A DNA stretch of 52,863 nt, taken from Bacteroidota bacterium. GTDB taxonomy: Bacteria > Bacteroidota > Ignavibacteria > Ignavibacteriales > Ignavibacteriaceae. The notes under the pieces were generated by a model. It was given only the letters and a program-made list of their open reading frames with translations, made no database searches and was not told the DNA's origin. The DNA lies in contig JAMCWE010000005.1 of the NCBI GenBank assembly GCA_023475265.1, forward strand, positions 1-52,863. The letters are read 5' to 3'. Shown here in pieces: positions 16,114 to 45,397 of the stretch. Made by a program: the position numbers and the translations under genes. The stretch's first letter is position 1. Each line of letters opens with the position of its first letter.

Positions 16114-17272
16114 ATCTAGTTTCCTCATTTCAAATTAGTATGTGAAAAAGTTTTGCTTCTTTCAAAAAGCCGTTAAACCCTTTAAGCTTTGTAATACATT
16201 TGCATGAATATAAAGCTAAAGCGGAATAACAGTCTTAAAACCATTTTGTAAACGGTTTAACGTTTAAATTATTTAAATTTTTGCTTGCATAAGCGCAAAC
16301 TGGTAAGTGTTATCCGTAAAATTAGTAGCTCAAAATAAATGATTTGATATATAAATACAAGAAAATGAGCCTCTATCTCATCTAGAAGTGATTTAGAGAA
16401 ATATATTTTAGCTGAAATGGAAGATGTTTGATGAAGATGTTAATGGTAGAAAAATCTTTGTTGCCTCTTTGCCGAAAGTAAAAAACATTAAATCCTTTTA
16501 CGGAATATTACAAGGACAATGCGTAACAAAAAAATATCCTTGTAAAAGATTTAAGTGGTTTTATTTTTCTTCCAAGAAGCTAGACGGCAATTGAAAATAA
16601 TTTGCAGATGGTTTAAAATCCTTTGACGGGAATTGTAAACGCTCCGACTGCTTAAAAGAATTGTGCGACGGACAATTTAAATACTTTGACGGGAAAGTAG
16701 AATCGCTTGACGGAACTTTAGAATGCCATGACGGAGGTTTATAATTGCCTGACGGCACATAGAAATTGCCTGACGACACATTAGAATGGAATGACGAAGG
16801 TTTAGAACAGCTTGACGGAAGGTAATAATGATTAAAATAGCAAAAAAACAAAGGAAACGGCCTTTTTAATAGGGATTTTTGAGCAATTAATATTTATTAA
16901 GCTAAGTAATTACGGTTCGCTTGGAATAAATAATTGAATTACAATTAATCTGACGATTAGGATGCTAAAAAAATTAAAGATGAAAATAATATCTGTTTTT
17001 AATTGAGGAATTTTTTAAGTTATATCCATCTTTGTAACGCTACTATGAAGAATGATTGCAGAGTCGATGAATTGGGCGAGATACTTATAACAATTAAAAA
17101 TGAAAAATTTAAAATTTTCTCCGAAGTGAAGGAGATTGATTCTATATACAAATAGATATTAAATAAAAGAAAGCGGTTGTTAGACGCGAATTTTTTTAAA
17201 TAACGACCTTATTAGGAACTGGAAATTCGAGTTAAGTAATAGTTGGGTGTTTCATAAAACTTAGGATTTTAA
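16114..17272. other. 1.1-kb intergenic region with a repeat array and no convincing gene
   Basis: The left part must hold the aceE promoter on the minus strand, but no clear promoter motif was recognised. The centre is a 21-bp periodic array (listed separately). Two short open frames, 16424-16594 (56 residues) and 17045-17155 (36 residues), look like eroded gene remnants because neither has a good ribosome site or a recognisable domain. Confidence 0.7.
16583..16820. repeat. 21-bp periodic repeat array, TGACGG core
   Basis: A GACG-type core recurs with its first G at 16625, 16646, 16667, 16688, 16709, 16730, 16751, 16772, 16793 and 16814. Every step is exactly 21 bp, and two weaker units lie at 16583 and 16607. 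Best units read TGACGG, a few variable bases, then a TTTAGAAT-like block. The variable interior differs between units, so this is not a recent tandem duplication. Because 21 is a multiple of three and units lack stops, one minus-strand frame stays open with a seven-residue PS-rich period; I regard that as a by-product. Confidence 0.88.
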
Positions 17273-18064
17273 ATGAATAATTATCGTTTGATAACAGATG
17301 GTGACTTGATTGAAAAAGAGTGCTGGAATTTATTTGTTGGAAATGAATTTTCAACCTATGAAATCTTTTGGATTGATTATATTATTCCCTTAACAAATAG
17401 ACCAAGTGATATACATTTTAAAACAAATCAAGAGTTAATTCAGATTGGTAAATCAGAGAAGGATATTTGTATTGCTCAATTAAATTACTCCATTCTGCGT
17501 CATTTGAAAGTAGTTTATGGATTAAAAAAATTAACACAGATTGACCTTGATAAATTAACCGAGGGAATGGTTAGAATCTGTGGAGCTTTAGATAACGCAT
17601 TTGAATTGTTGGAAAGATACAGTAATCCAATCTATAATGCTTGGGTCAATGGAAAACAAGCTAGAAGAAATTGGCAAAACAGAAATGATCATCCTTTAAA
17701 ACAATTAAGAGGTTATCGAAACCATTTAATTCACGGAAGATTGACACCAAGTGATGAATCAAGTGCGCAGTTACTTGTACCAAATTTTGGTTCTGAAGAA
17801 AAATATTATGATTGGCGTTTGATAACTAATTCGACTAAAAATCCTGGGTTGAACAGTGCCGATTTAAAATCTTCAAAAGAAATATTAAATAAATCTTGGC
17901 AAGATGCAATTATTTATCTCGAATCAAATTGGAAAACTGTTCTAATGAACGGAAAAATTTATCCGAACTTACCACAAATAAATGTCACTAGTGAGATTAT
18001 AAATTCAATAAGCGGCTCAAATGTTTCGCAATCATCTACTCCTAAAAGTGGTAGCGTTCCATAA
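17273..18064 (+). CDS. HEPN-like protein of unknown function
   Basis: A 263-residue, mainly helical, soluble protein. The only recognisable feature is RGYRNHLIHGR at 147-156, where Arg149, Asn150 and His154 fit the RNxxxH signature of HEPN ribonuclease-type domains, placed after a helical stretch as in that fold. The C-terminus is Ser/Thr-rich and probably flexible. No partner nucleotidyltransferase lies beside it. It sits in the accessory stretch between the 21-bp array and a zinc-ribbon membrane protein. HEPN assignment rests on one motif, so it is tentative. Confidence 0.7.
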   Translation: MNNYRLITDGDLIEKECWNLFVGNEFSTYEIFWIDYIIPLTNRPSDIHFKTNQELIQIGKSEKDICIAQLNYSILRHLKVVYGLKKLTQIDLDKLTEGMVRICGALDNAFELLERYSNPIYNAWVNGKQARRNWQNRNDHPLKQLRGYRNHLIHGRLTPSDESSAQLLVPNFGSEEKYYDWRLITNSTKNPGLNSADLKSSKEILNKSWQDAIIYLESNWKTVLMNGKIYPNLPQINVTSEIINSISGSNVSQSSTPKSGSVP

Positions 18065-39008: not shown

Positions 39009-39668
39009 ATGAAAAATCAAGATAACATAAAGCTTGATGGAATCATCGCTGCTATCGTAGATCAAATGGGCGAAGTTGATTTATACCATCTTAATAAGCT
39101 CACTTATTTATTCGAATTCTTATTTATAAAAAACTTTGGGAAAAGATATACAGGCGAATTGTTTATTAAACTTCCTCATGGCCCAGTTATTACTAATTAC
39201 AAAAAAGTATTTGAAAGATTATTCCAAGCAGGAATACTAGAGACTGATTTGGAAAAACTAAAAGAACAAAGAAAACTATCGGATGATTATCATGTTAAGA
39301 TAGAATTGAAAAAAACCGAAAAGACTACATCTATAATTAGACTTGACAAAATGATTATGGATTTCATTAAAAAGATTATCATTAAATACGGATATTTAAG
39401 CGTTAGTGATCTTGAAAAAGAAGTTTATAAAACAAAGCCGGTTAAAGAATATCAATCCAAAGTTGAAAATGGATTTAAGCAGCAAACCGGCAGCTATGTA
39501 CTTAGGGATTGCATTAAATTATCAGAATACAAAAACACTATAACATTAGGACGAAAGCTAGCATTAGAACACTTAAATAAATATCCAGATATTATTACAA
39601 AACAATATCAGACTTATGAAGAAGAATTTTCATCACTAAAGAAGTTAAGGCCTGCATGGGAGAATTAG
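39009..39668 (+). CDS. Panacea-domain (SocA-like, DUF4065) antitoxin
   Basis: A 219-residue protein with an N-terminal Panacea/SocA-like domain. Landmarks are LYHLNKLTYLFEFLFIKNFG, TGELFIKLPHGPVITNYKKVFE, and a C-terminal region with KYGYLSVSDLEKEVYKTKPVKEY. Panacea domains neutralise many unrelated toxins. Its 3' end overlaps the next gene by 13 bp, and that gene encodes a PemK/MazF-like protein, a reasonable toxin. It follows the hepT terminator and likely heads its own operon. Confidence 0.82.
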   Translation: MKNQDNIKLDGIIAAIVDQMGEVDLYHLNKLTYLFEFLFIKNFGKRYTGELFIKLPHGPVITNYKKVFERLFQAGILETDLEKLKEQRKLSDDYHVKIELKKTEKTTSIIRLDKMIMDFIKKIIIKYGYLSVSDLEKEVYKTKPVKEYQSKVENGFKQQTGSYVLRDCIKLSEYKNTITLGRKLALEHLNKYPDIITKQYQTYEEEFSSLKKLRPAWEN

Positions 39669-40087
39669 GGGATAAACTAATCGAAATATTTCCACCAAAG
39701 CAAAGAGAAGTTTGGATGATCGAAGATAAAGAGATTCGATTAAATCCGAACAACCGTGAAGATAAATATAGAAGGCCAGCCTTAGTTGTTTCAGCAAAAG
39801 AACTATTAGATAATAAAGATTTTCCGCTTATTAACATAATACCTTTAAGCAGGCAGGGAAAGCCCGATAAACTTTCATTTCCAGTTGCTAGAGGTTATGA
39901 AGAATGTGCCGATGATTTTAAACCGGATTCAAACTCATTAGCAGTGCTTCCATATTACCAGCCAATAGAAAAGAAATTCTTTAAACAAAGATGCGGCACT
40001 ATTGATGAGACAACCTATAATGCTATAGTAAATGTTTTATGTTCTGAAGTTGTCGGCTGCGATGATTTTGATTTGAACGTAGAATAA
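39656..40087 (+). CDS. PemK/MazF-like putative toxin
   Basis: A 143-residue protein resembling the MazF/PemK mRNA interferase fold. REVWMIEDKEI begins the first strand, YRRPALVVSAKELLD is the next, NIIPLSRQG follows, and DSNSLAVLPYYQPIEKKFF leads to a C-terminal helix (TIDETTYNAIVNVL). It lacks a classical RGEV/RDIV start and has a longer insert, so it is a divergent member. The 13-bp overlap with the Panacea gene makes toxin-antitoxin pairing likely; catalytic activity is inferred. Confidence 0.75.
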   Translation: MGELGDKLIEIFPPKQREVWMIEDKEIRLNPNNREDKYRRPALVVSAKELLDNKDFPLINIIPLSRQGKPDKLSFPVARGYEECADDFKPDSNSLAVLPYYQPIEKKFFKQRCGTIDETTYNAIVNVLCSEVVGCDDFDLNVE

Positions 40088-40148
40088 ATTTAAATCAAAA
40101 ATTTCAATATGTAATAAATTGCCTTAATAATGTGGTCTATAGAATTTA

Positions 40149-41180
40149 ATGGCTAAGAAAAAAAAGAAAAAAAAAGAACCCGTTTATAAAAGTGAAAAAT
40201 CAAGAAAAAGAGCATTACGGAAGAAAAATCCTTTTTATCACAGATTTAGTTCAATAAGTAAAAGAAAAAATTCAAAAATATATGATCTTGAAAAAAATCC
40301 CGAAATTTTATATTTAATAGCACCCCAAAACTTTAGCTTAAGTAAGCTATCTTATATTGAAGCAACATTAAAATTTTTCAATAAATTGGATTCAGGGGTT
40401 CATCGATATAATAGTGTATTCTTAAACATGGAGAATATTACTTTCCTGAGCGAAGATGCAATCTTGTATTTATTATCAAGATTACACGCGTATAAAATTA
40501 TGTATCCGAATTATTCTGTTAGCGGTAATTTCCCCAATGATAAAACTTGCGAGAAATTATTACTTGATTCTAATTTCACTAAATATATAATTACTAAAAG
40601 GAAACCCAAAATAAATAATAAAGAGATATTCCCTATTCGTGATGGTATTGATTCTGATGGTGAGATTTTAGGTGAGGTGTTAAATTTTATTGAATCTAAA
40701 ATTGATCTATCTGAAGACAATAGCTTTGATATGTATGGACCTATGTTGGAGTGTTTAACTAATTCAAAAAATCATGCATATAATAATTCTATGTCAAAAC
40801 TTCATAGATGGTGGTTGATTGCCATACCTGATAAGAATCATAAAAAGGTGCATTATACTAGTCTCGATAATGGTCTTGGTATTCCAACAACAATAAATAA
40901 AAAATTTGCTGATATAGTGAAATCGTTTGTGAGTAATAAAGATCCTGATTTAATCATATCAGCACTTAATGGAGAGTTTAGAACACGTACTGGTAAAGTA
41001 GAAAGAGGAAAGGGATTACCCTCTGTATTCGAATCAACAAATAACAAGCAAATAGATAATTTGACAATTATTTCAAATTTTGCCTATGTTAAAATAGGTA
41101 GAAATAAAAAAATTCTTGAAAAAGAACTATTAGTAAAAAGATTTCGAGGAACATTAATAAGCTGGGATTTTGTAGAGTAA
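40149..41180 (+). CDS. GHKL ATPase with N-terminal STAS-like segment, first gene of a three-gene module
   Basis: A 343-residue protein. A Lys-rich start (AKKKKKKKEP) is followed by a STAS-like segment at about 50-155 (VFLNMENITFLSEDAILYLL). A GHKL/HATPase domain follows: N box MLECLTNSKNHA with Glu201, Asn205 and His209; G1 box SLDNGLGIP with Asp240; G2-like ERGKGLPSVFE at 285-295. It has no dimerisation/phosphoacceptor helix, so it is not a sensor histidine kinase; it resembles SpoIIAB/RsbT-type ATPases. A DUF4325 gene begins 16 bp downstream, which suggests a partner-switching pair. Confidence 0.82.
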   Translation: MAKKKKKKKEPVYKSEKSRKRALRKKNPFYHRFSSISKRKNSKIYDLEKNPEILYLIAPQNFSLSKLSYIEATLKFFNKLDSGVHRYNSVFLNMENITFLSEDAILYLLSRLHAYKIMYPNYSVSGNFPNDKTCEKLLLDSNFTKYIITKRKPKINNKEIFPIRDGIDSDGEILGEVLNFIESKIDLSEDNSFDMYGPMLECLTNSKNHAYNNSMSKLHRWWLIAIPDKNHKKVHYTSLDNGLGIPTTINKKFADIVKSFVSNKDPDLIISALNGEFRTRTGKVERGKGLPSVFESTNNKQIDNLTIISNFAYVKIGRNKKILEKELLVKRFRGTLISWDFVE

Positions 41181-41196
41181 AATTATTGAGGGTAAT

Positions 41197-41529
41197 ATGG
41201 ATGCTTCAAGTAAAATAATTAAAATAAGTATAGCAGGAGATTTTTCCTTAACACCTGGAGCTCGCTATAGATCTGATGGGCCAAAGTCTGGCGAAGAATT
41301 TAGAGAAGATTTTTTAGAAAAATATTTTAAAGATCCAAGTGATGATACAATTATTGAAGTTTTCCTTGATGATGTTAGGGGTTATACTACTTCTTTTTTA
41401 GAAGAAGCATTTGGAGGATTAGCTAGAAAATATGGTAAAGAAGTAGTTAAGAAACGAATTAAAATAATTTCTAAAAAACGATTGTTGTATAAAGAGAAAG
41501 CTGAACAATACATTGAAAACACAAAATAA
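41197..41529 (+). CDS. DUF4325 STAS-like protein
   Basis: A 110-residue protein. Conserved blocks are RYRSDGPKSGEEFREDFL (about 24-40), then a strand IIEVFLDDVRGYTTSFLEEA and FGGLARKYG, the hallmark of DUF4325. The family is STAS-like, and GHKL ATPases are natural partners. A ribosome site (GAGGGT) precedes its ATG, 16 bp after the ATPase stop. Its 3' end overlaps the membrane-protein gene by 17 bp. Very likely one operon. Confidence 0.85.
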   Translation: MDASSKIIKISIAGDFSLTPGARYRSDGPKSGEEFREDFLEKYFKDPSDDTIIEVFLDDVRGYTTSFLEEAFGGLARKYGKEVVKKRIKIISKKRLLYKEKAEQYIENTK

Positions 41530-42085
41530 AAATAACACAAGTGTTTTCATATTGATATTCATAGGTGGTTTATTAATAGGATTTATAATCTCTTTTTCAA
41601 TCAATAATCCTCTTAATTATTTTTATCTAAAATTTTCAGAAATCATTCAGGTTGCGACTACATTGGTTGTTGGTATTTATGTTTCTTATTACTTGGGTAA
41701 TAAAATTACCAACCTTGGAAAACAAAAAGAAATTATATTAAATAGTATTAATAAATTAGAAAATCAAACTGAAAAACTACAAACTTATTTTTTGAATATT
41801 GTCTATAATAAGAATAAAAAAGCATCTAGTTCTATTATTAGTTTATTAGATAATATGATTGCTTTGTCTGAAACTTTATTAAATATTAAAAATTTAAATA
41901 ATCATATTTTCTTAGAATCAATAGAAGTTGTAAATGATAAAGTATCTAGTCTTTGGGATTATATTACTGGTGATGAATTAAATAATTTGAATTACAAAGA
42001 AGATAATATTGAAAAAATAAAAGAAACTATTCATTCATTAAAAAGCGACTTACACAATTGTAAAATAAATCTATTTATTAAATGA
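41513..42085 (+). CDS. Two-TM membrane protein with coiled coil, third gene of ATPase/DUF4325 module
   Basis: A 190-residue protein with two transmembrane helices (about 10-32 and 42-63), then a charged, Asn/Lys/Ile-rich helical region of about 125 residues (KEIILNSINKLENQTEKLQ onward) that is probably coiled-coil and cytosolic. No catalytic motif is seen. The start overlaps the DUF4325 gene by 17 bp, tying it to the upstream ATPase. A membrane output or effector for the switch is the simplest idea; function unknown. Confidence 0.72.
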   Translation: MKTQNKNNTSVFILIFIGGLLIGFIISFSINNPLNYFYLKFSEIIQVATTLVVGIYVSYYLGNKITNLGKQKEIILNSINKLENQTEKLQTYFLNIVYNKNKKASSSIISLLDNMIALSETLLNIKNLNNHIFLESIEVVNDKVSSLWDYITGDELNNLNYKEDNIEKIKETIHSLKSDLHNCKINLFIK

Positions 42086-42731
42086 ACGTATAAGTAATCA
42101 TTTTTTTATTCATAATAAGTTAATTATAAAATTTTCTCCTAACTTATTGAATTTTAACATTTTAATTTTTAGTTTCGTACTAGTTTTATTGACGGCTGAT
42201 ATTTTTCAGGGGAGATAAAGTCCCGATCTTATTTTCCACGAAAATTTTATTAGTCATTTAAATAATATTACAGCGGCATACATCCTGTTTTTAAGCCTGT
42301 CTAATGGTAAGTTTTTGGCGAAAGGGTGTTATGGTAAAGGGTCCTTAATTTTTTCATTTTTTTAACCTTCTATTGTGTCAGGTTTTGCAAAGCCTGCTTA
42401 ATTAGTAATCCCCGCTTTATCTACTTTCGGCAGGTATAAATGCTTTTCCGGCAGTTCTAATTGCATTTTCGGCTGTTCGAAATGCTCTTTCGCCGGCGAA
42501 GACGCTCTTCGAATGAGCGAAAATGGACTTAGAAGGTGCGAAAACCCTTAAAGAGTGGGCGAAAACGTATAAATACGTGACGAAAAATCACATTGAATAG
42601 GCGAAAATTGTCTTGGAAGTAACGAAAATCAATTTAGATGTGACGAAAAAACATTTAGTGCCTAAATTATCCAATTTTGGGAAAACAAAGGCCATCAGAA
42701 TAATATTTACAAAAATAATAGGAGATATGTT
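42086..42731. other. 645-bp gap with a divergent repeat array and no gene
   Basis: The left 340 bp is AT-rich with no credible frame. The right half holds the divergent 21-bp array (listed separately), which ends about 75 bp before the next ATG. No tRNA or known RNA motif recognised. Confidence 0.7.
42425..42652. repeat. Divergent 21-bp periodic repeat array (TTTTCG ... CGAAAA)
   Basis: Left half: the CG of TTTTCG-like cores lies at 42428, 42449, 42470 and 42491. Right half: the CG of CGAAAA cores lies at 42518, 42539, 42560, 42581, 42602, 42623 and 42644. All steps within a half are exactly 21 bp. The halves are inverted about roughly 42505. The bases between cores vary, so there are no conserved spacers or repeats of CRISPR type. 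The A-tracts on a two-turn period predict curved DNA. The array lies 75 bp upstream of a gene of unknown function. Confidence 0.9.
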
Positions 42732-43448
42732 ATGTCTAGTTTACAGCCACTACCAAGGTTATTCAAAAGTACAGATTTAGAAATGACCGATGAAGCAAGA
42801 AAGATTTATGGTTTTTTCAATGAAGACATAAATGATTTTATAAAGTTCGATCCGGATTTTGGCGATTCTTTTGCGCCCGCATGGTTAAAAGCAATTGAGG
42901 ACGCTGAATCTTTACAAAGTAAGGATTCGCTGGATGCAGAACAAAAAAGCTTAACCCAAGCAGTGGAAGATAAAATGAAAGGATGCAGAAATAAATTTCA
43001 AAGCTCTAAGTATTTTATTGAAAAAGCATTTCCTAATAATAAAATTGTTTGGGATGAATTCGGTTATAAAAAATATGATGCAGTTAGAAACTACCAAATT
43101 CAGATGAAAGAATTCATGCGGAACTTTTACCGTACTGCATCTAAGTATTCTGCAAAATTGATTGAAGTAAAATATTCTGCTGAAAGCATTGCAGAGATAA
43201 ATACGTTGTTAAAAGATCTGGTTGATGCCGATGCTGCTCAGGAAGATTTTAAGAACGGCAGGCCGATGCTTACACAGGATAAGGTTGGAAAGCTTAATTT
43301 GTGTTACAGCACCACTTCGAAAGCAGCCAATGTGGGCAAGCAAATTTTTGCGAGTGATTATGCTAAGCATAAAAGATATGTCTTAAGCTCTGAGCCTGTA
43401 CTGGCGCCCGTTACACCACCGGCTAATCCAAATAATCCGCCGGCTTAG
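42732..43448 (+). CDS. Unrecognised 238-residue helical protein downstream of repeat array
   Basis: A soluble, mainly helical protein. It starts LPRLFKSTDLEMTDEARKIYG, has acidic and basic helices with CRNKFQSSKYFIEKAFPNN and YQIQMKEFMRNFYRTA, and ends in a Pro/Asn-rich tail (VTPPANPNNPPA). No catalytic motif, signal peptide or membrane segment is visible. A strong GGAG ribosome site precedes ATG. Its only notable context is the divergent 21-bp repeat array immediately upstream. The base composition is less AT-rich than the module to its left. I do not recognise the family. Confidence 0.72.
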   Translation: MSSLQPLPRLFKSTDLEMTDEARKIYGFFNEDINDFIKFDPDFGDSFAPAWLKAIEDAESLQSKDSLDAEQKSLTQAVEDKMKGCRNKFQSSKYFIEKAFPNNKIVWDEFGYKKYDAVRNYQIQMKEFMRNFYRTASKYSAKLIEVKYSAESIAEINTLLKDLVDADAAQEDFKNGRPMLTQDKVGKLNLCYSTTSKAANVGKQIFASDYAKHKRYVLSSEPVLAPVTPPANPNNPPA

Positions 43449-43489: not shown

Positions 43490-43497
43490 CTTAATTA

Positions 43498-43630
43498 CTT
43501 ACTGAAGTTACACATTAAACCTTCGAGGTCACTGCTCTAGACCTCGAAGGTTAAAATTATGCTACCTTGAAGGTCTGAAACCAGTGACCTTCAAGGTAGG
43601 GGTTCTCTTTGCATAACTTCAGTTACTTAA
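43498..43630. repeat. Nested palindromic element between convergent genes
   Basis: Three inverted pairs nest here. Outer arms ACTGAAGTTA near 43500 and TAACTTCAGT near 43614 enclose two 13-bp perfect hairpins: AACCTTCGAGGTC / GACCTCGAAGGTT (about 43518-43553) and TACCTTGAAGGTC / GACCTTCAAGGTA (about 43563-43598). The two inner hairpins resemble each other, and the outer arm overlaps the symporter stop codon. It can act as a bidirectional terminator and looks like a REP/MITE-type element. Confidence 0.85.
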
Positions 43631-45397
43631 TATTTCCCAACCGCGTTTGTTCATCTGATAAAAAATTATTCCGCCGAAAACAAAACCGCCGATTAGAAAT
43701 AAAATTCCTAAAGGTAAGCTGCCGAGAATGATTTGTCCAAGCCCGAATAAGAAGCAGTAGATCATTGCTACGCCGCTAATCCAATTTATCAAATTAAGTA
43801 TTCCATCTTTAGAAGGGGTTATATCGGAAGCTTCTTTTGCTATTGGTCCCCAAAATCTTGCATTTGGCCTGACTCTACGATAAAATGAAAGGAGCTTTTC
43901 TTTTGGCTCGGCAGAAGTTAAATAAGTTACAATAATCCAAACAGTAGTTGTAAATGCAACAGTAATTAAAAGCAAATATGCAAATTGCTTAGGATCGTTT
44001 TCATCAAAGTGAAAGCCGAACTGAAGAGTAAGTGAAACTACGAACGCCGCAATCATTGCGGAGATTTCGCTCCACGCATTTATTCTCCACCAGAACCAGC
44101 GTAAAATATAAACTAAGCCTGTGCCTGCACCAATTGCCATTAAGAATCTCCAAGCGTCTGCGATTGAATCCATGTAAAAAGTGACAATAGCAGAAAGGAT
44201 CATCAAAACCATAGTAATAGCTTGTGAAAAATTAACGTAATGTTTCTCGGCTTTTTTAGGGACTAATCTTCTATAGACATCATTAACTAAATAACTCGCT
44301 CCCCAATTTAATTGAGTTCCAATTGTCGACATATAAGCCGCTGCAAATGCAGCGATCATTAATCCGCGCAGATATGCCGGTAAATCTGAAACTAAAATTC
44401 TTATATAGCCGGTTTCCGGATCGGCTAAGAAACTTGCATCATGTTGAAGACGGACGACAGCAACCAATGCGACAATGATCCATGGCCACGGCCTCAAAGC
44501 ATAATGAGCAACGTTAAACCACAAAGTTGCAAGCAAGGAATGCTTTTCATTTTTTGCGCTGAAAATTCTTTGAGCAATATAACCGCCGCCTCCGGGCTCG
44601 GCGCCGGGATACCACGAAGCCCACCAGTTAACTGCAATGAAAACAAAAAATGTAATCATCGGCATCCATGTGGAATTTAAATTTGGAACCATAGCTAAAA
44701 TTGAGCTAGAAGGATCGCGGGCTTTATCAATTGCATGAAGCTGACTGAGAAGTGAGCCCATTCCGCCGGTTGCATTAACTGCAAAAACTGCAAGCAGAAT
44801 TACCATTCCCATTTTCAAAACGAATTGGAATAAATCTGTCCAAAGAACTCCCCACAAACCGGAAAGAGTAGAGATTGAAGCAGTGATGAACATGATTGCA
44901 ATTGCGATACCGAGCGCTTCTATTTTATTTACTCCGAGTACAAGCATCATAATTTTTACAATTGCAAGATTAACCCATCCCATGATAATTAAATTGATTG
45001 GAAGTCCAAGATAAATTGCACGGAAGATTCTTAAGAATGCGGCAGGCTTTCCACTGTAACGGATTTCTGCGAACTCGCAATCAGTAAGTACACCGGCACG
45101 GCGCCAAAGTTTAGCATAAAAGAAAACCGTAAGTATTCCGCTGAAGACCATGCTCCACCAAATCCAGTTGCCGGCAATTCCATTTTTAGCAACGAGACCT
45201 GAAACTACTAACGGTGTGTCGGCTGCAAATGTGGTAGCAACCATAGACGTACCGGCAAGCCACCAGGTAACATTTCTGCCGGATACAAAAAAATCGCTGA
45301 CACTTTTTGTCGCTCTTTTTCTAAGATAAAGACCGACTGCAAGATTGAAAATGAAATAGAGTGCAATTACGATCCAATCAATTAAGCTTAGCTGCAT
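43619..45397 (-). CDS. Sodium:solute symporter (SSS family)
   Basis: A 592-residue membrane protein with about 14 hydrophobic segments. Landmarks are DWIVIALYFIFNLAVGLYL, SVSDFFVSGRNVTWWLAGTS (the SSS N-terminal signature), and AAYMSTIGTQLNWGASYLVNDVYRR. The C-terminal extension with two to three helices is common in sugar/vitamin transporters of Bacteroidota. I use the ATG at 45397 because GGAG lies seven bases upstream; a longer frame to 45442 adds 15 residues with no signature. Substrate unassigned. The stop lies inside a palindromic element. Confidence 0.9.
   Translation of the reverse strand: MQLSLIDWIVIALYFIFNLAVGLYLRKRATKSVSDFFVSGRNVTWWLAGTSMVATTFAADTPLVVSGLVAKNGIAGNWIWWSMVFSGILTVFFYAKLWRRAGVLTDCEFAEIRYSGKPAAFLRIFRAIYLGLPINLIIMGWVNLAIVKIMMLVLGVNKIEALGIAIAIMFITASISTLSGLWGVLWTDLFQFVLKMGMVILLAVFAVNATGGMGSLLSQLHAIDKARDPSSSILAMVPNLNSTWMPMITFFVFIAVNWWASWYPGAEPGGGGYIAQRIFSAKNEKHSLLATLWFNVAHYALRPWPWIIVALVAVVRLQHDASFLADPETGYIRILVSDLPAYLRGLMIAAFAAAYMSTIGTQLNWGASYLVNDVYRRLVPKKAEKHYVNFSQAITMVLMILSAIVTFYMDSIADAWRFLMAIGAGTGLVYILRWFWWRINAWSEISAMIAAFVVSLTLQFGFHFDENDPKQFAYLLLITVAFTTTVWIIVTYLTSAEPKEKLLSFYRRVRPNARFWGPIAKEASDITPSKDGILNLINWISGVAMIYCFLFGLGQIILGSLPLGILFLIGGFVFGGIIFYQMNKRGWEILSN

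Follow-up and report, generated by a model that had tools for sequence, protein, structure and literature searches.

The locus analysed here raises the question of what is served by DNA units whose length is kept and whose sequence is not, standing in front of a gene of no known function. The window, which is the whole stretch of 52,863 nucleotides analysed from a Bacteroidota bacterium of the Ignavibacteriaceae, contains an array of 21-bp units at 42425–42665. The array is real, and chance is no explanation for it. Identity at lag 21 (150 bp) peaks at 0.587 at about 42495, against a window mean of 0.296 (SD 0.049). The segment score for lags 21 and 42 is 82 for 42425–42649; when the whole window was simulated 30 times with a first-order Markov model, no score exceeded 16. 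The sole place with a higher lag-21 identity is a second array, with 0.647 at 16657; the next peak is 0.473. This second array (16612–16817, plus strand) has a segment score of 104, the core TGACGG, and a second block, TTTAGAAT.

The array at 42425–42665 is inverted about a palindrome. The left arm (42425–42494, minus strand) is composed of four units with the plus-strand cores TTTCG or TTCCG at 42425, 42446, 42467, and 42488, a 21-bp step as read from the sequence. They read as the right-arm unit, roughly ATTTAGAAgtGnCGAAAA, in reverse complement. The right arm (42495–42665, plus strand) is composed of eight units at an exact 21-bp step, with CGAAGA at 42497 and CGAAAA at 42518, 42539, 42560, 42581, 42602, 42623, and 42644. 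The palindromic centre, TTCGCCGGCGAA, lies at 42489–42500 and has no strand of its own. Its axis at 42494.5 is the best inverted register, in which 43 of 69 positions are complementary. An earlier note on this DNA described eleven units at an exact 21-bp step, with a switch of core orientation near 42505. The step is indeed exact in both arms and the inversion is present, but there are twelve half-sites (4 + 8), including an extra right-arm core at 42497 that overlaps the centre, and 42505 is the next-best register (44/80). The filler between the cores had been considered variable. It is not free, as a second, weaker conserved block, TTTAGA, recurs in it. Adjacent units of this array are 38–76% identical.

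The spacer between the array and the gene (42666–42731, plus strand) carries AGGAGA, which resembles a Shine-Dalgarno sequence. A candidate promoter of the Bacteroidota type in this spacer, TTTG-N21-TAATATTT, is weak and no better than chance (P 0.22). Scanning for TTTG/TAnnTTTG across loci with up to one mismatch gave 9/59 in the forward and 8/59 in the reverse direction. On the other side of the array, the window contains a cluster (39009–42085) of SocA/Panacea antitoxin-like, PemK-like toxin, DUF4325 STAS-like, and small membrane-protein-like genes, together with a gene for an unassigned 343-aa protein that looks GHKL ATPase-like by eye. Six window proteins (39009–43448) were scanned against Pfam, and none of their matches is to a cas family. 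A CRISPR array was considered as well and rejected; no constant repeat block with unique spacers is present.

The gene downstream of the array (42732–43448, plus strand) encodes 238 residues, which are predicted to form an all-helical bundle with a Pro-rich C-terminal tail. No Pfam family matches this protein. It matches the NCBIfam entry NF052641, "PQLLE family protein", with 28.4 bits (E 1.2e-6), where the curated cut-off is 80. It is a distant homologue of NF052641 and not a member by the curated rule. Twenty-five of 43 family members match NF052641 at E <= 0.01. In the tool output, the entry states neither a function nor arrays. AlphaFold2 with 50 family rows gives an elongated all-helical bundle (pLDDT 94.9, pTM 0.80). 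A search of the structure database with the family profile yields no solved relative worth the name, the best match being OTUB1 (E 0.018). Fold searches return only coiled coils and generic helical bundles and no DNA-binding fold; such a missing match is no evidence for a new fold. The sensor domain of TorS (3i9y), from the TorS/McpS-like class of helical bimodular sensor domains, aligns with the window protein over 177 residues with Z 8.1 and rmsd 4.2, below the level trusted for helical bundles.

The C-terminus of many family members is made up of a Gly-rich linker and a Pro-rich tail. Among the ten longer members scanned, one (L065) has a C-terminal carboxypeptidase regulatory-like domain, and another (L184) has a weak fn3 match below the cut-off. 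The family is rather acidic, with a median pI of 5.5; the pI of the helical part is above 8 in 19/87 and below 6 in 45/87. Among near genomes, 8 of 59 have homologues found by the protein alone; the count is 20 of 164 for the order and 24 of 395 for the phylum, the genome of the window being included each time. This genome (4.77 Mb, 270 contigs) has several relatives of the gene, 4 or 9 matches depending on the search with the gene itself counted, and up to 9 family matches occur in one draft genome. Ten homologue records belong to metagenome-assembled Bacteroidetes, Bacteroidia, Chitinophagaceae, and Ignavibacteria. Residence on plasmids or phages is not supported: the window protein had no match by tblastn, a distant relative had none against plasmids, and none of 12 pattern matches on viral contigs was confirmed. 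Just 3' of the gene lies a MITE-like element (43492–43632) with terminal inverted repeats around TAACTTCAGTTA and nested GACCTTCAAGGT palindromes. An element with the same ends is located between array and gene at another locus, L016.

Is the array a property of this one locus or of the gene family? Family genes were collected without reference to arrays, and the 1,300 bp upstream of each was scored against a threshold of 45, which was chosen after the first loci had been inspected. An upstream 21-bp array is present in 29 of 48 family genes of the first set and in 32 of 41 of the second, phylum-wide set. These sets were reduced from 63 and 43, respectively, by dropping matches with less than 700 bp upstream and, in the first set only, those under 30 bits. 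In all 32 array-bearing loci of the phylum-wide set, 21 is the best upstream lag among lags 14 to 35. A third set consists of the 17 new loci among 30 with NF052641 matches; here, the whole locus was scored without an upstream-length filter, and arrays are seen in 11 of 17, all of them preceding the match.

The controls are low. Downstream of the first-set genes, arrays are seen in 3/48; of these three, the one at L065 belongs to a second paralogue and lies upstream of it. Six other lags give 0/48 upstream and 1/48 downstream. In three genomes that have the family, 8 of 544 other reading frames (150 aa or longer) are positive, several of them through low-complexity coding DNA or one shared array. 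In three relatives without the family, the uncorrected count is 5 of 491 genes, and all five are beside 7-bp microsatellites. The difference between 61/89 and 8/544 corresponds to 8e-54 in Fisher's exact test, in which the homologues are not independent. The array and the gene are thus coupled, and the array is on the upstream side. The earlier note had suggested an undescribed array-plus-gene system, to be abandoned if arrays were not enriched beside homologues of the gene. They are strongly enriched there, and the suggestion is supported.

At the genome scale the picture is similar. A sample of 924 kb from three family-bearing genomes has nine arrays at 21 bp. It shows no comparable arrays at lags 16–20, 22–28, 30, and 33, apart from two stretches of low complexity within reading frames; two such stretches (L130 and L138) were dropped from the 11 background segments. 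The 800 kb covered in three family-free relatives have no genuine 21-bp array once four lag-21 segments are discounted, of which three are 7-bp microsatellites and one is an acidic coding stretch on inspection. Lags 20, 23, and 24 give a few segments in these genomes as well.

The family-free relatives bear on the role of the array. It is conceivable that the phased array serves RNA polymerase or a general nucleoid protein as an enhancer or upstream activating region, and that the gene is merely regulated. The upstream position, the phasing, and the A/T-containing cores of the window array would agree with this. However, this type of array is rare beside the 544 other genes, and it is missing from the relatives without the family. 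We consider this explanation unlikely.

The coupling is not complete, which counts against array and gene being one module. No upstream array is detectable in 28 of the 89 family genes, and solitary arrays exist. In the protein tree, arrays are present in 59 of 82 rows and are clustered (13 changes vs 20.2 when shuffled). One clade of seven loci (L068, L069, L080, L085, L086, L087, and L097) has no upstream array at all, and can be considered as a natural control group. L085 and L086 of this clade have an array downstream instead. Eight of the nine arrays in the 924-kb sample are solitary. Four of the eight are at contig ends, and the adjacent gene may be cut off there. The second array of the window is solitary, with no family gene match near it; the nearest gene downstream (17273–18064) encodes a 263-aa protein. 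Nine loci were compared with their flanks, and as a whole they have only the family gene in common, so that the module seems to stand alone. Some pairs of loci, such as L057 and L060, share one or more genes.

What is conserved among the arrays is the step and not the letters. The 64 family arrays have a median of 11 units (range 4 to 34). Their excess self-identity is 0.36, 0.40, 0.32, 0.36, 0.31, 0.35, 0.28, and 0.32 at the eight multiples of 21 from lag 21 to lag 168, and falls to about 0.02 one base to either side of the multiples. The even multiples score above the odd ones, indicating that many arrays alternate with a period of 42 bp. The median identity between neighbouring units is 0.62; 44% of the pairs are below 0.6, and 6% are at least 95% identical. 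Nevertheless, 562 of 581 informative neighbour pairs are at exactly lag 21, alongside 3,197 base differences, although the low indel count comes partly from finding and delimiting the arrays by lag 21. The earlier note had proposed selection for geometry, and the conservation of the step rather than the sequence favours this proposal. The same figures speak against one recent tandem duplication with decayed identity, which it had named as a refuting outcome.

The unit sequences differ between loci. Examples are CAACTGGAG..CCGGAAA at L016, CTTCGAAGTCGTGGAAAACAT at L020, TAACAACCTAAAAATACTATC at L208, and TTCCGAACGGCGTAAAGACCT at L174. Paralogues of the same genome with similar proteins can carry unlike units (L175, L196, and L197), and unit similarity tracks protein similarity weakly (rho 0.10, P 0.02, n = 63). 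Several unit types of the same length can be found inside one array, as in L206, L178, L198, and L152. A universal unit motif was sought and rejected; CGGAA/TTCCG is mildly enriched (10/73 arrays vs 0.9 expected). The divergent arrangement named in the earlier note is not a defining trait either. Of the arrays that can be tested by score, 5/53 are inverted (the window array, L061, L065, L201, and L206).

The unrelatedness of units between loci and the mixture of same-length unit types in one array are also what would be expected if slippage, template switching, or an enzyme step produced 21-bp units as a functionless, tolerated by-product of mutation. A few near-perfect arrays, which might be young, fit this origin as well. 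Against it, diverged arrays are still in phase, the same 21 bp is seen across the phylum, and the arrays are coupled to one gene family on its upstream side. A mutational by-product is regarded as improbable.

As 21 bp corresponds to seven codons, the array could be suspected to code for a heptad-repeat peptide, and some arrays, L020 and L151 among them, are open in one or more frames. No codon-position signal is seen (combined p 0.83, with 2/36 under 0.05), and 12 of 36 arrays, including the window array, have stops in all six frames. The array is non-coding. Heptad coding is refuted as a general explanation, and we give it almost no credence.

Another possibility is that the array acts as RNA. 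It might be transcribed, as a long 5' leader or as a separate RNA, and the family protein, or a ribosomal or chaperone protein, might bind the RNA every 21 nucleotides, for example in translation control or in an RNA-protein particle. The position is suitable. The array ends upstream of the estimated gene start, at a median distance of 181 bp, distances being counted from the first methionine near the profile start, which is possibly inside the true start (42783 instead of 42732 in the window). The sense strand is biased to purines, with 26 of 64 arrays having a purine fraction of 0.55 or more and 8 of 64 having 0.45 or less; 21 arrays are dominated by [GC]GAA and 8 by TTC[GC]. The rather acidic character of the protein also counts for this possibility. 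When entire arrays are folded, they are on average a little more stable than column shuffles (mean z -0.69, standard error 0.33, sense strand), and this difference is mainly due to inverted arrays, L065 for example. On the other hand, the units do not form hairpins. The mean column-shuffle z is 0.02 for the sense and 0.01 for the antisense strand (n = 36), and local folding of the sense strand has z under -2 in 3/36 arrays and over 2 in 2/36. Rfam finds no family in the window at the gathering threshold. In 12 loci searched with E up to 0.5, it gives three matches, all under gathering scores and none convincing. The inverted arrays suit DNA better than RNA, and in single-stranded RNA nothing obvious would call for a step of exactly 21 nt. 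A role at the RNA level is rather doubtful, somewhat less so than the enhancer or the by-product.

Intrinsic curvature, which the earlier note had offered as one possible selected trait, is not supported. In a calculation with wedge parameters, the arrays are hardly more curved than their column-permuted versions (mean percentile 0.52, mean z 0.41, standard error 0.24, n = 67); 7/67 are above the 95th percentile and 2/67 below the 5th. The window array has a curvature of 1.26 against a background of 1.08 and exceeds 99% of the window segments sampled, as periodic sequences tend to do. There is no half-unit periodicity of 10.5 bp, and the conserved columns have no second block at half a unit. 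Contact with the same helix face accordingly has no support beyond the 21-bp step itself. The replication or nucleoid site that the earlier note also raised stays a conjecture.

The two-turn spacing over more than eight units, the drifting letters, the occasional inversion, and the fixed place upstream of the gene point to a platform of double-stranded DNA. We propose that the array and the gene form one module, in which a cis-acting DNA platform is read by its spacing and occupied by protein every two turns. This is the reading we prefer, with a confidence a little short of even. The platform would be a row of about 11 (4 to 34) units at a median of some 180 bp upstream of the gene for the helical-bundle protein. 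The step of 21 bp would be two turns of B-DNA, with the weaker 42-bp alternation superimposed and the letters free. Its likeliest occupant would be a regularly spaced nucleoprotein assembly in contact with the same helix face every two turns.

Two actors can be considered for this assembly. The simplest is the module's own protein, which might assemble there as an oligomer and direct its flexible Pro-rich tail, or its C-terminal extension, away from the DNA. The acidity of the family and the absence of a DNA-binding fold among the folds found argue against it, and strict recognition of a sequence by the protein is hard to reconcile with the unlike units of paralogues whose proteins are similar. 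Alternatively, a DNA-binding protein of the host might occupy the array and be regulated by the module's protein. In either case, each copy might control its own gene in cis, perhaps by autoregulation, or mark its own locus. The purine bias of the sense strand is a point against the DNA platform, as it hints at an oriented, perhaps transcribed element and keeps a role at the RNA level alive.

A more far-reaching reading of the platform is that bacteria of the Bacteroidota type carry a hitherto unrecognised class of chromosomal array-gene module. In this class, a rod-like helical protein, or a complex governed by it, would be laid on a fixed 21-bp step with little sequence preference, and each paralogue would keep its own array. 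We regard this as possible and would sooner expect it to be wrong than right. If it is true, geometry and not sequence is inherited, and a genome can have many independent addressable sites.

Known systems resemble the module in part. The iterons of plasmid origins are direct repeats of about 17–22 bp beside a rep gene, often autoregulatory, and the Rep initiator reads one sequence in them. They share with the module the many units at about two helical turns beside one gene. Iterons have one recognised sequence, whereas the unit consensus of the module differs between loci, and up to nine family matches in one draft genome are a further difference. An iteron module needs a Rep initiator, and none is seen in the Pfam/NCBIfam matches (E <= 0.01) of 43 members; one of the 43 matches a PHROG named replication initiation protein with E 0.0038, which is taken as chance. 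Plasmid centromeres of the ParR/parC type are phased repeats upstream of genes, on which a binding protein with a flexible C-terminal tail builds a nucleoprotein superstructure. Phased upstream repeats and a tail on the protein are seen in the module too. ParM-ParR-parC includes an adjacent actin-like ATPase, while the nine module loci have no such partner or any other constant one. ParR is a ribbon-helix-helix protein, whereas the model of the module protein shows an elongated bundle made up of helices only. Ordinary bacterial tandem repeats (VNTRs) are also tandem units upstream of a gene, and some module arrays are nearly perfect like them. Unlike VNTRs, the module units stay exactly 21 bp across the phylum, with neighbours often less than 60% identical.

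The TAACTGA direct repeats are intergenic repeats of Beggiatoaceae, cyanobacteria, and some Bacteroidetes, in which a fixed heptamer precedes many unrelated genes (PMC4679880). They are like the module in being intergenic, upstream of genes, and partly from Bacteroidetes, and they differ from it in having one heptamer for many genes, in contrast to a fixed period with free sequence for one gene family. The NF052641 proteins have a region homologous to the module protein, and their matches also carry 21-bp arrays. A search of the open-access literature brought up no description of such arrays or of "PQLLE", most subscription papers being beyond this search. Within that scope, the pairing of a period-fixed, sequence-free array with this gene family is undescribed.

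A non-coding array with a conserved period and not a conserved sequence is thus coupled, across a phylum, to a protein family of no known function. The arrays are a marker that can be searched for by autocorrelation alone, and they give a nameless protein family a testable partner. They also raise the question of how the cell keeps the 21-bp register while the sequence drifts. If proteins do occupy them, the arrays would be DNA-binding platforms read by geometry and not by a consensus motif.

Several other elements are seen around the arrays. Conserved DNA upstream of the array is found within close subfamilies only. A conserved 130-bp element is located there in L071 (1824–1956), L095 (1858–1990), and L082 (3944–4081), and carries an inverted repeat, AAGAACTAATTGC..GCAATTAGTTCTT. 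Between L071 and L095 it is more conserved than the gene stretch (85% vs 67%). Between array and gene, L016 and L067 (and, imperfectly, L049) have a palindrome-like sequence, TGTGATTnnTGATCACA; in L020, L024, and L066, TGTGATTAATGAACA is common there instead. In L059 (L012), a gene, presumably of the GxxExxY type, is inserted between the array and the family gene, and the array is shifted to about -1,090.

In L112 (13698–14406), a 21-bp array lies 72 bp upstream of a minus-strand gene for an unrelated-looking 155-aa protein, so that arrays of this kind may accompany a second gene family. L134 (3357–3618) is a solitary array in the genome G001, and its unit, ATCAACTGGAGTC.GGAAAG, hardly differs from the one in the family array of L016, which belongs to this genome too. 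This similarity indicates that units may spread within a genome.
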